Positions 10,899 to 51,944 of a stretch of DNA of 64,000 nucleotides are shown piece by piece (the first letter of the stretch is position 1; every line of letters begins with the position of its first letter). Origin of the DNA: Venenivibrio stagnispumantis (GTDB taxonomy: Bacteria; Aquificota; Aquificia; Aquificales; Hydrogenothermaceae); contig NZ_FXTX01000001.1 in NCBI RefSeq assembly GCF_900182795.1, positions 62,001-126,000 on the forward strand. The letters run 5' to 3'. The notes under the pieces are model-generated. The model was not told the origin of the DNA and did not search any database. It saw only the letters and a list, made by a program, of their open reading frames with translations. The position numbers were made by a program, and so were the translations under genes.

Positions 10899-12371
10899 AT
10901 GCTAATAGAAAATAGAGTATTAGTCTTACATATAAGAAATAAAACAAAGATTGATATATCAAATAAATTTATTAAAACCTGTCAGCATTTTAAGAATTTA
11001 GTGTATCTGATAATTAAAGAAAAAGGATATTCTATTTTAAATATATCTGCCTTTAAAAAATCATTAGTAGAAAGAAACAGAAAACAATTATCGGTTAAAG
11101 AGATTGAAATAATTGATAAAATTCAATCATCAAGTTATTTTCCATCTTTAAAAGAAATGTCTAAAAACCTATCATCAGTCACAGTTCAAAAACTAATAGA
11201 ACAGGTAATGAATGAGTATAAAAGTTATTTCAATGCTTTAAAAGATTATAAGGAAAATCCTCGTAAATACAAAAATAAACCTAATCCACCTAAACCAAAG
11301 AAATTAAGTAGAATAAATAATTTCTCAATAAGTTTTGTTAAAAACAATTTTGTAATTAAGGATAAAGGATTAGTTCTTACACTTAATAATAACCTAAAAC
11401 TAAAATTTAAACTGCCAAAACATATATTAAGAAAAGAAATATCATCTATTAGATTAGTCAAAAGATTAGATGAATATGAACTACATATCATATATAAAGA
11501 AAAGATATTAAAGGAAAATTTATTATTAAATGAAAACATTTATGTAGGTATTGATTTAGGATTAGATAATTTAGCAAGTATATTTACCAATAATCCATCT
11601 ATTGAAAGCCTAATAATAAATGGAAAACAAATAAAATCATTTAATCAATGGTTTAATAAGAAAAAATCAGAATTACAATCATTGAAAGATAAATCAAAAG
11701 ATATTGAAGAGAAAGCAAAATACGATTACTTAATCAGGAAGTTATTTAGATATAGAAATAAAAAAATAAAAATATGGTTTCATTTAATATCTACAAGAAT
11801 AGTAGAATATGCAATATTGTCAAAAGCAAAACATATTATCATTTCCAGAGATATTTTAGGCTCTAAAAATGGTATAAATTTAGGTAAAACAAATAATCAA
11901 AATTTTGTCAGTATACCATTTGCATTGTTAATTGATATGATAAAATATAAAGCAAAAAAATATGGTATAGTTGTAAAAGATAAAGAAAAAGAATATTTTA
12001 CAAGTCAAGCAAATTGTTTAACCAATGATATTAGGAAAGTTATGAGAAATAAGAACATTGAATTGTCAGGTGAAAGAGTAGAAAGAGGATTATACAAGGA
12101 TTTTGTTTATGGATTAAAATTTAATGCAGATATCAACGGTGCCGTAAACATTGTTAAAAGAATTAAACTTAAAGTTATTGATTTTTATTTTAAAAGCAGG
12201 GAACTATTTAAGGTATTAAAGAGAAAACTTTGCAGACCAATTAAATTTAATATTTATCAGTTACAAAATGCAAACCTGTTCCTGCATAGGTTATTATCTA
12301 TGCCGGCAGGGATTAGTAATAGTTGTAGTGGTTTAAATGCAGAAATATATAAATTTTTATATGTTTTTTGA
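10899..12371 (+). CDS. tnpB: Solitary TnpB-type (IS200/IS605 OrfB) RNA-guided nuclease family protein, copy 1
   Basis: This 490-residue protein is of the TnpB family, programmable nucleases of IS200/IS605 elements and ancestors of Cas12. RuvC-I is GIDLGLDNLA with D219; RuvC-III is FNADINGAVNI with D411. No CxxC...CxxC zinc ribbon lies between them, and the usual glutamate of the second RuvC motif is not at its canonical place. Instead NLGKTNNQNF and KEYFTSQ (E363/E365) occur, a pattern I associate with a recognised TnpB subgroup with a relocated catalytic glutamate. No Y1 transposase tnpA lies nearby, so any mobility would need one in trans. The start ATG at 10899 has no clear Shine-Dalgarno. 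A related copy is at 50274-51944. Confidence 0.85.
   Translation: MLIENRVLVLHIRNKTKIDISNKFIKTCQHFKNLVYLIIKEKGYSILNISAFKKSLVERNRKQLSVKEIEIIDKIQSSSYFPSLKEMSKNLSSVTVQKLIEQVMNEYKSYFNALKDYKENPRKYKNKPNPPKPKKLSRINNFSISFVKNNFVIKDKGLVLTLNNNLKLKFKLPKHILRKEISSIRLVKRLDEYELHIIYKEKILKENLLLNENIYVGIDLGLDNLASIFTNNPSIESLIINGKQIKSFNQWFNKKKSELQSLKDKSKDIEEKAKYDYLIRKLFRYRNKKIKIWFHLISTRIVEYAILSKAKHIIISRDILGSKNGINLGKTNNQNFVSIPFALLIDMIKYKAKKYGIVVKDKEKEYFTSQANCLTNDIRKVMRNKNIELSGERVERGLYKDFVYGLKFNADINGAVNIVKRIKLKVIDFYFKSRELFKVLKRKLCRPIKFNIYQLQNANLFLHRLLSMPAGISNSCSGLNAEIYKFLYVF
12281..12310 (+). ncRNA. Hairpin near the 3' end of tnpB copy 1, candidate guide-RNA scaffold
   Basis: Inside the last 100 nt of the tnpB frame, CCTG-CATAG (12281-12289) pairs with CTATG-(CCGG bulge)-CAGG (12298-12310) around an 8 nt loop. 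It sits where omega RNAs are usually encoded, overlapping the 3' end of tnpB. A second A/T-rich inverted repeat of about 10 nt (GAAATATA..., TTTATATTTC) spans the stop codon near 12342-12386. No expression evidence can be had from sequence alone, so this is a candidate only. Confidence 0.35.
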
Positions 12372-40639: not shown

Positions 40640-40667
40640 TTGCATTATTTAGAAAATATTATATAAT
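40640..40667 (+). promoter_or_regulatory. Strong promoter for the DUF2203 leader RNA
   Basis: TTGCAT (40640-40645) and a perfect TATAAT (40662-40667) are spaced by 16 nt. Transcription would start near 40674, just before the structured leader. Confidence 0.65.
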
Positions 40668-40673
40668 TTATTG

Positions 40674-40791
40674 TCAGGAGGTAAGTGTGGATAAATACCG
40701 CCTGCCGGGAGATATCCACAAATAAATAAGGCGGATTATAAATACCCGGTCCAAAGCTACTTACTGCTTTGGTAAGAAAGGTAAATAAAAG
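40674..40791 (+). ncRNA. Structured 5' leader RNA of the DUF2203 gene, possible novel riboswitch
   Basis: Between the promoter and ATG 40792 lie five GC-richer paired elements in otherwise AT-rich DNA. P1 is TGTGGATA (40686-40693) with TATCCACA (40713-40720). P2 is CCGCCT (40698-40703) with AGGCGG (40729-40734). P3 is GCCGGG (40704-40709) with CCCGGT (40745-40750). P4 is a hairpin CCAAAGC (40751-40757) with GCTTTGG (40766-40772). The loop of P4 (ACTTAC, 40759-40764) is complementary to GTAAGT at the RNA 5' end (40681-40686). P1, P2 and P3 interleave, so they are pseudoknotted or mutually exclusive. The pattern does not match any riboswitch class I know. Confidence 0.5.
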
Positions 40792-41217
40792 ATGATTATA
40801 AAATATTATAGTGTAAATGAAGCAAATAAAATATTACCACAACTTAAAGCTCTTGTTGAAGAAATAAAAGAAAAAAGAGAACTATTATATAATGAAATAG
40901 AAAGACATGAATTATTAGAAGAGGAAGATAAAGATAATATATTAGAGCTAATGTATACAAAAACACAGATTAATACCTTAGATGCAGAAATTAGAGAACT
41001 TATTGAAATTATTGAAAGTTTTGGAGTGTATGTAAAAGGATTAGACCCATTTTTGATAGATTTTCCTTCTGAACATAATGGAGAAGCTATCTTCCTTTGT
41101 TGGAAAGAAGGTGAAGAAAGAATAGAATGGTGGCATAAAATTCATGAAGGATTTGCCGGAAGAAAACATATATCGGAACTAAATAAAGATAATCCTACTA
41201 AATTTTTTTATAAATAG
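40792..41217 (+). CDS. DUF2203-family protein
   Basis: The 141-residue protein matches the DUF2203 family. The N-terminal YYSVNEANKILPQLK is followed by a long charged helical hairpin (about 15-85). The conserved C-terminal part has VKGLDPFLIDFPS, EAIFLCWKEGE and WWHKIHEGFAGRKHI. The family has no established function that I know of. It is small, soluble and conserved in thermophiles and Bacillus-like species. Here it is under its own promoter and a structured leader RNA, which hints at ligand- or factor-controlled expression. RBS AAAGG is 10 nt before ATG 40792. The 3' end overlaps the convergent bioC by 20 nt. Confidence 0.82.
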   Translation: MIIKYYSVNEANKILPQLKALVEEIKEKRELLYNEIERHELLEEEDKDNILELMYTKTQINTLDAEIRELIEIIESFGVYVKGLDPFLIDFPSEHNGEAIFLCWKEGEERIEWWHKIHEGFAGRKHISELNKDNPTKFFYK

Positions 41218-50273: not shown

Positions 50274-51944
50274 ATGAAATCCTATAAAAGAGCATTAAGC
50301 ATTAGGATAAGTGGAAAACAGAAAAAAGAGAGAATATCAGATTTACAATATAAGTTGATGCAATTTAGAAATCTACTTATCATATTTAACCAAATTTATT
50401 ATAAAAACTATGGATACATTGTTTTAAACGAAAGCTATTTATTTAATCTGCTATCCGATAAACCGTATAGACCGAGAGATACAAAAGATGAAAATGGTAA
50501 TATTAAAAAATCTAAAGAAGAAAAATTGCAGGAATATAATGATATTTTACAAAACATTGATAAAGTTCAAGAATTAAAAGAGTTTATAGTTAAACTAAAA
50601 CAACAAAAAGACAGTGTAAAAAATGTCCATGTAATTCAATCGGTAATCAGGCAATATATAAGTGATTACAATAGTTATTTTAAGTCTTTGAATGAATATA
50701 CTAAAAAACCTAACAAATTCAGAGGAAAACCAAGACCACCAAAAGCTAAGAAATTAAAGGATATTATATCTTTTACTGTTGAACTTAACTCTAATTCATT
50801 TGAAATTATAGATGGTAGATATATCTTAGTTAGATTAACATTTGATGATGAGAATTCAAGATATATAAAAGTTAAATTACCTGAATATATAGATAGAGAA
50901 AAAATAAAATCAATAAGAATAAAAACCATAGGAACTGATGCATATATTGATGTAGTTTATACAAAGAAAATAAAAATTCCTGAAACAGAAAAACAATATA
51001 TAGCAGGAATAGATTTAGGATTAAATAATCTATTAACAATATTTAGCAATAATCCAAGTTTAAGAACTCTAATAGTCGGTGGTAAAGAAATAAAATCGTT
51101 CAATCAATGGTTTAACAAAGAAAAAGCAAAAATACAATCAGAAATAGATTTACTGCAAAATCAAATAAATAAACTATCAAAAGATGGTTTAAATATAGAT
51201 AATCTAAAATTACAGATAAAAACACTAATAAATAAACAAAAACAACTATCGGCATTCAGAGAAAGATATTTAAATAATATTTTCCATCAAATAACAAGAA
51301 AAATAGCAGATTATCTATATGAAACCGGACATAAAAAGGTAATAATAGGCAATGGAGCAATGAGTAGTAAAGATGGCATAGATTTAGGGAATAAAACAAA
51401 TCAACATTTTGTTAGTATACCATTTAGAAAAATAATAGATATGCTAAAATACAAACTTGAAGAGTATGGAATAGAAGTTGAAGAAATATCAGAAGAATTC
51501 ACAAGCAAAACATCACCATTTGCTAATTTAAATGAAGTTTTAGAAATTGGAGAGGAATATTTAAAGGTAAAAAGAGAACTAAAGAATACCGATTTATCAG
51601 AAGAAGAATTAAATCAGTTAAAAGAAAAGGAAAAAGAGTTAAAGGAACAATTAAATACTCTTTATAATGGTAAAAGAATAAAAAGGGGATTATTTAAGGA
51701 TTTTATAACAAACAAAGTATTTAATGCAGATGCAGTAGGAAGTTATAACATATTAAGAAAAGTGGCTATGCCACTAATAAATAACACTAAACTATTAATT
51801 GATAAATTATCAAGACCGGTTAAATTAAAATTAAAAGATTTATTACAAGTATCCCGTGATTTTGTAGTGGAAATACTGCAAATAACGGGTAGTAGGCAAA
51901 ATCGGGTACTCTGCAAGATAGTAGAAGGATATAACTTTTTATAA
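50274..51944 (+). CDS. tnpB: Solitary TnpB-type (IS200/IS605 OrfB) RNA-guided nuclease family protein, copy 2
   Basis: At 556 residues this is a longer relative of the copy at 10899. RuvC-I is GIDLGLNNLL with D247; RuvC-III is FNADAVGSYNI with D486. The same TnpB subgroup blocks occur: NLGNKTNQHF-type segment, then EISEEFTSKTS with E407/E408, the likely relocated catalytic glutamate. As in copy 1, there are no zinc-ribbon cysteines. An insertion (about residues 415-455, ELKNTDLSEEELNQLKEKEK) lies before RuvC-III and makes most of the extra length. The frame is intact, and no tnpA adjoins it. A TATAAT box lies within about 20 nt of ATG 50274 with no Shine-Dalgarno. Confidence 0.85.
   Translation: MKSYKRALSIRISGKQKKERISDLQYKLMQFRNLLIIFNQIYYKNYGYIVLNESYLFNLLSDKPYRPRDTKDENGNIKKSKEEKLQEYNDILQNIDKVQELKEFIVKLKQQKDSVKNVHVIQSVIRQYISDYNSYFKSLNEYTKKPNKFRGKPRPPKAKKLKDIISFTVELNSNSFEIIDGRYILVRLTFDDENSRYIKVKLPEYIDREKIKSIRIKTIGTDAYIDVVYTKKIKIPETEKQYIAGIDLGLNNLLTIFSNNPSLRTLIVGGKEIKSFNQWFNKEKAKIQSEIDLLQNQINKLSKDGLNIDNLKLQIKTLINKQKQLSAFRERYLNNIFHQITRKIADYLYETGHKKVIIGNGAMSSKDGIDLGNKTNQHFVSIPFRKIIDMLKYKLEEYGIEVEEISEEFTSKTSPFANLNEVLEIGEEYLKVKRELKNTDLSEEELNQLKEKEKELKEQLNTLYNGKRIKRGLFKDFITNKVFNADAVGSYNILRKVAMPLINNTKLLIDKLSRPVKLKLKDLLQVSRDFVVEILQITGSRQNRVLCKIVEGYNFL

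Follow-up and report, generated by a model that had tools for sequence, protein, structure and literature searches.

CRISPR-Cas12 descends from TnpB, and domesticated proteins of the TnpB type have been described. Our subject is a structured RNA in the leader of a DUF2203 gene of Venenivibrio stagnispumantis (Aquificota), found in a stretch of 64,000 nucleotides which we call the window (assembly GCF_900182795.1, contig NZ_FXTX01000001.1, positions 62,001 to 126,000). We propose, at a probability of about 0.82, that this leader is a remnant of the 3' core of a TnpB guide RNA, the right-end RNA (reRNA, or omegaRNA), which came from an IS607-type element and was turned into a constitutive structured 5' leader. 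In the available passages of three papers, IS607 is described as exchanging DNA at a GG dinucleotide with no target duplication (PMC6188088), the TnpBs of IS607 elements as requiring the target motif AGGAG, less often GAGGG (PMC11061315), and the Shine-Dalgarno sequence of Aquificales as GGAGG (PMC4227106); those passages make no mention of a link between the Shine-Dalgarno sequence and the IS607 target motif. Since the two coincide, the Shine-Dalgarno sequence would be a natural homing site of such an element.

The RNA is placed exactly between AGGAGG (40676-40681; all window coordinates are on the forward strand) and the ATG of the DUF2203 gene at 40792. From the junctions of related elements and the published target-adjacent motif (TAM), AGGAGG appears to be the original Shine-Dalgarno sequence of the gene and the presumed target of the insertion. 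The DUF2203 gene (40792-41217; PF09969, E 1.1e-37) is the recipient and is functionally not tied to the RNA, its orthologues being without it. A host promoter (40640-40667) can be read upstream, with TTGCAT (40640-40645) and TATAAT (40662-40667) separated by a 16-nt spacer; this promoter and the leader of 118 nt are as the first-pass annotation, made from the sequence of the window, had placed them. Three helices then follow in the order 1-2-3-1'-2'-3': P1 (40686-40720) pairs TGTGGATA (40686-40693) with TATCCACA (40713-40720); P2 (40698-40734) pairs CCGCCT (40698-40703) with AGGCGG (40729-40734) and is interleaved with P1; and P3 (40704-40750) pairs GCCGGG (40704-40709) with CCCGGT (40745-40750) and is interleaved with both. 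Directly 3' of this core stands the hairpin P4 (40751-40772), formed by CCAAAGC (40751-40757) and GCTTTGG (40766-40772), followed by TAAGAAAGG (40773-40781), which a comparison of tails across copies suggests to be a decayed right-end tail, ACCAGG in the TnpB-linked copies, and probably the new Shine-Dalgarno sequence. The window copy is an orphan: it has neither tnpB nor a left end, and the 5' reRNA domain and the ACCAGG tail are absent as well; both partners of the canonical reRNA pseudoknot are missing from it, and it is a core remnant, not a complete reRNA.

The leader RNA is a covariation-supported, triple-interleaved pseudoknot without an Rfam entry. Across 78 distinct copies the three interleaved helices had 96.3% of their cells paired, compared with 77.8% after shuffling and at most 49% with the partners slid; changes on both sides were seen in 16 of the 21 pairs, double-change cells numbered 275 against 71 expected, and the covariation score was 0.487 against 0.135 expected (0 of 500 shuffles). 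All eight pairs of P1 and all five main pairs of P3 change on both sides (one P3 pair is UA in 44 relatives, CG in 32 and GC in 2), and P2 is near-invariant, its outer pair going from C-G to G-C in 10 sequences. P1 was built into the alignment model (R1) and P2 and P3 were not; the covariation support for these two therefore does not come from alignment fitting. A hairpin of at least 6 bp directly after the core, the position of P4, occurs in 51 of 52 TnpB-linked copies and in 88 of 107 orphans (33 of 107 expected by shuffling), both sets having been drawn partly by sequence pattern and forming a sample, not a census. A plain single-sequence fold of the leader is only mildly unusual against shuffles (z -1.7), because nested folding cannot show interleaved helices. 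An Rfam search at curated thresholds and at permissive E-values gave no match to the leader RNA, the RAGATH-18 covariance model included. The interleaved helices, the fourth hairpin and the lack of a known class had all been put forward in the first-pass annotation and are upheld here, as is its expectation of covariation. A further proposal, that the P4 loop pairs with the 5' end of the RNA (ACTTAC with GTAAGT), fell away: a 6-nt match is present in 2 of 100 orphan relatives, where 1.1 are expected, and in the window the complementarity arises at the insertion junction, where GG meets TAAGT.

The region upstream of DUF2203 was readable in 28 relatives. Each of them has a plain Shine-Dalgarno sequence, in most cases GGAGG, a short way before the start codon, and the model search found no core RNA in any of these 28 regions; many relatives have a TATAAT-like box ahead of the plain leader too. 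The window RNA is an insertion found only in this genome, and the 28 relatives are natural empty sites. The window copy is not specific to DUF2203, because the DUF2203 genes of the relatives are without the RNA and the core is found before dozens of unrelated housekeeping genes.

The core itself is widespread. Within the order, the covariance model R1 matched 85 of 112 genomes, with as many as 35 copies in a single one, and among the matches listed from a pattern scan of a species-level genome collection the core occurs in Caldanaerobacter, Thermoanaerobacter, Fervidicola, Thermovorax, Carboxydothermus and other mostly thermophilic lineages. V. stagnispumantis has a second copy ahead of thrC; its P1 is wholly different (AGATGCCT/AGGCATCT in place of the window pair) and still paired, and its P3 has changed too; three weaker core copies are present besides, the weakest at E 0.05. 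Diverged copies of this genome lie at G000:C38:1-62 and C3:51535-51598, one at a contig edge and the other without a clear start codon after it. The window also holds two TnpB-like genes (10899-12371 and 50274-51944), of subfamilies that differ from the core-linked TnpB; the 260 nt that follow each of their stop codons showed no core RNA. Four further genomes (G049, G051, G098 and G099) encode 7-13 TnpBs each of the same broad family (approximately 44-53% identity), with no core match listed; their guide RNAs may differ in type.

The origin of the core is indicated by its carriers. In 52 fetched copies it overlaps the 3' end of a TnpB reading frame (NCBIfam TIGR01765, TIGR01766), at the right end of a transposon. 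Two complete tnpA-tnpB-RNA elements in one genome (G024) each have an IS607-family serine transposase directly upstream of TnpB; no such transposase accompanies the window copy. Another genome (G025) has five near-identical elements, of which the four readable at both ends are situated between a purine-rich Shine-Dalgarno sequence and the start codon of metE, guaB, adk and leuC, as identified by translated starts, with right ends that read ACCAGG and then pass into those start codons. The left junction follows GGAGG in 11 of the 12 complete elements read, two Firmicutes included, and GAGG in the remaining one; the left ends in cross-genus blast comparisons were not sharp, and junctions were therefore read inside genomes or genus pairs. 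TnpB-linked RNAs have an extra 5' domain of approximately 220 nt with covarying helices, and in 45 of the 52 linked copies the apical loop (CUUGG or CCUGG) of the hairpin just before the core can pair with CCAGG at the element end, beside the presumed guide. A pseudoknot between an upstream apical loop and the guide-adjacent nucleotides is described as conserved in TnpB right-end RNAs in the accessible part of one study (PMC10711439). The associated TnpB frame is approximately 540-595 aa long and by inspection retains RuvC D-E-D-like motifs; its predicted fold has Cas12f1 as the best match (E 3e-10), with order extending to about residue 436 and disorder in the stretch of the frame that overlaps the RNA. 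TnpB would be expected to bind the RNA and to carry out guided cleavage.

Copies without a TnpB upstream, the orphans, number 107 in the sample, of which approximately eight may be misclassified as they retain both pseudoknot partners. Their position is that of a messenger RNA leader: in 101 of the 107 a start codon in the same orientation follows the core at a distance of 10-75 nt (random expectation 42% under a lenient rule), and AGG or GGA is kept 3-18 nt before the start codon in 82 of these 101. The ACCAGG end is found in 12 of 107 orphans compared with 65 of 69 linked or contig-edge copies. About half of the orphans (52 of 107) are no more than 60 nt away from the end of an open reading frame on the same strand and are thus probably inside operons; a TATAAT-like box occurs no more than 20 nt before P1 in 42 of 107, compared with 24% after shuffling. 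Two genes, named by their translated starts, have the core in more than one lineage. At a radA-like gene there is an orphan leader in Thermovorax (L228) and a TnpB-type right end, with the TnpB-side marker and ACCAGG tail, in a metagenome-assembled genome of the Tepidanaerobacteraceae (L214), a possible before and after of tnpB loss. Before an rpoA-like gene, orphan leaders occur in two families (L124 1204-1272 in G025; L112 383-448 in G045), either inherited from a common ancestor or inserted more than once at one ribosome-binding site.

The most copies were found in one closed Aquificaceae genome (G045), which has up to 35 cores, mostly at housekeeping genes. All 30 fetched copies stand ahead of dispersed genes, including rpsU, rpsT, rpsR, rpsK, rpmF, rplY and hfq (two), and further ndk, ilvC, glyA, rho, ftsH, ppa, trxA and nuoB, named from translated starts and not from a family search. 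No TnpB of the core-linked subfamily was found in this genome, just five TnpBs of other subfamilies. Ten copies of one type (type B: L101, L106, L108, L111-L117), nine of them with near-identical cores, have a mean core identity of 92%, whereas their P4 hairpins (62%) and upstream sequences (56%) are apparently unrelated, as if the core had been copied or homogenised as a unit. At htpX, an orphan leader is present in eight genomes of one genus; five of its eight P1 pairs have changes on both sides, 97% of cells are paired, and none of 500 shuffles reached the observed double-change cells. Several of these genomes are without a core-linked TnpB, and the compensatory changes there mean that the structure is maintained without the nuclease, which argues for a function in cis. 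For the window copy, the evidence is the pairing itself, every pair of P1 to P4 being intact.

We suggest the following course of events. In a complete element the entire reRNA would be bound by TnpB, and the sequence after ACCAGG, which is the host start-codon region, would serve as guide against empty GGAGG sites. At the DUF2203 gene an element would have entered at the GG of AGGAGG, the Shine-Dalgarno sequence, and so have come to lie between it and the start codon, supplying both its reRNA and a replacement Shine-Dalgarno sequence, so that the recipient gene would still be expressed. The later loss of tnpB, of the left end and of the 5' portion of the reRNA would have left the triple pseudoknot core, P4 and an AGG as replacement ribosome-binding site, and the remnant would now be the structured 5' untranslated region of the DUF2203 messenger. 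In orphan copies the guide function would be gone; in some lineages the leader may have been kept or copied because, at high temperature, it makes the messenger in cis more stable or better translated. The probable role of the core today is in cis: a constitutive, structured element which sets off the new ribosome-binding site and either stabilises the messenger or aids translation in the heat. The structure, the insertion position, the empty sites, the anatomy of the elements, the positions of the orphans and the conservation at htpX are read directly from sequence; binding and homing by TnpB are inferred from what is known of TnpB, and the present effect on expression is a hypothesis. We tentatively extend the idea, at somewhat short of even odds, to a core that, its nuclease gone, has become a domesticated, mobile module in the 5' leaders of core genes, up to 35 in the closed Aquificaceae genome, acting through an unknown host factor or as a thermostable translation or stability element.

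Several observations weigh against a transposon origin for the window leader. No cognate TnpB was found in the V. stagnispumantis genome, and, with its own tnpB, left end, 5' domain and ACCAGG missing, the derivation of the window copy rests on its core, P4, position and relatives. Just 4 of 107 orphans keep a GGAGG immediately before P1, and most do not display an insertion site. The direction from transposon to orphan is suggested by the truncated, decayed state of the orphans, a pattern rather than a rooted tree, and the copy-richest genome, without a core-linked TnpB, would also suit the opposite direction, in which the transposon captured a host leader. On that account, a genome-wide 5' leader module of thermophiles, bound by an unknown factor, was taken up by IS607-type TnpB elements as part of their guide RNA; the excess of orphans over linked copies in the sample (107 to 52), the genome of 35 copies and the conserved leaders at htpX would all fit. 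We consider it unlikely, as the TnpB-linked RNA is of greater length and includes the canonical TnpB pseudoknot, orphans resemble its truncated versions in which ACCAGG has largely gone, the window insertion is recent relative to the empty sites of relatives, and linked copies occur in Firmicutes and Aquificota alike.

A ligand-sensing riboswitch or ribozyme controlling DUF2203, as the first-pass annotation had it, would account for the 5'-leader position, the compact pseudoknot and the strong covariation. What stands of that proposal is a real, previously uncatalogued pseudoknotted RNA in a 5' leader; the specific link to DUF2203 is ruled out by the 28 relatives without the RNA. Sensing or catalysis of this kind is now largely refuted and very improbable: the core precedes genes as unrelated as rpsU, rpsT, hfq, ndk, ilvC, ftsH, rho and htpX, for which no single ligand fits, the Shine-Dalgarno sequence after P4 is open, with neither a switching terminator nor a sequestered site, and no Rfam class matches. 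Equally remote is a trans-acting guide for a nuclease-dead TnpB, suggested by the presence of a TnpB-type RNA upstream of genes and by TldR, described in the part of the report available as RNA-guided transcription factors derived from TnpB (PMC13418256); the associated TnpBs retain their RuvC D-E-D-like motifs and are not nuclease-dead by this mark, the orphans are without the tail and 5' hairpin required for the pseudoknot, and the orphan-richest genomes have no core-linked TnpB. More substantial is the possibility of a neutral relic, a dead right end kept merely for its replacement ribosome-binding site; it shares its origin with the reRNA remnant proposed here, differing in present function alone, and the likelihoods we attach to the two overlap. 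The restriction of the window copy to this genome, and the many IS607 right ends to be expected at GGAGG, favour it, whereas the structure preserved by compensatory changes at orthologous htpX leaders, the presence of 35 copies in a single genome, for the most part at core genes and with nine near-identical cores between unrelated flanks, and the intact P1 to P4 of the window count against it. We regard it as a real but lesser possibility.

If the leader is a reRNA remnant, it would be the guide RNA, not the protein, that appears domesticated, in cis, as the 5' untranslated region of many host genes. The AGGAG motif would then be of evident use to a selfish element: by homing to ribosome-binding sites and bringing its own replacement, it could allow essential genes to stay expressed, and a dispersed leader regulon would have been built by a transposon using the Shine-Dalgarno sequence as its homing site. 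In a literature search that took in few subscription papers, we found no relevant paper on TnpB in connection with the Shine-Dalgarno sequence, the start codon, exaptation or an Aquificales leader RNA, nor a prior description of the RNA in the available text of a survey of Aquificales non-coding RNAs (PMC4227106).

Among described systems, as far as the accessible parts of the respective reports go, the RAGATH-18-type reRNA of the IS607 element ISFba1 (PMC11061315) is similar in being a right-end RNA beside tnpB, with an AGGAG motif and pseudoknots. However, the RNA described here has no Rfam match to RAGATH-18, its core is a triple-interleaved pseudoknot and its TnpB frame is of approximately 540-595 aa; the position between Shine-Dalgarno sequence and start codon and the orphan leaders were not found described in the text available for ISFba1. 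The IS607 reRNA of ISXfa1 (PMC10711439) shares the GG crossover and a pseudoknot in which the apical loop of an upstream hairpin pairs with the guide-adjacent nucleotides, and differs in core topology, in hosts and in the exaptation as a messenger leader. The omegaRNA of ISDra2 TnpB (PMC10097598) likewise overlaps the 3' end of tnpB and the right end, with a pseudoknot beside the guide; ISDra2, however, is an IS200/IS605 element with the motif TTGAT and the helix order S1-PK-S1'-S2-S2'-PK', in contrast to 1-2-3-1'-2'-3' here. With TldR (PMC13418256) the leaders would have in common that TnpB-type components were domesticated for gene control, but in TldR it is the protein that was domesticated, to act in trans, whereas here the RNA core appears to have been kept in cis without the protein.
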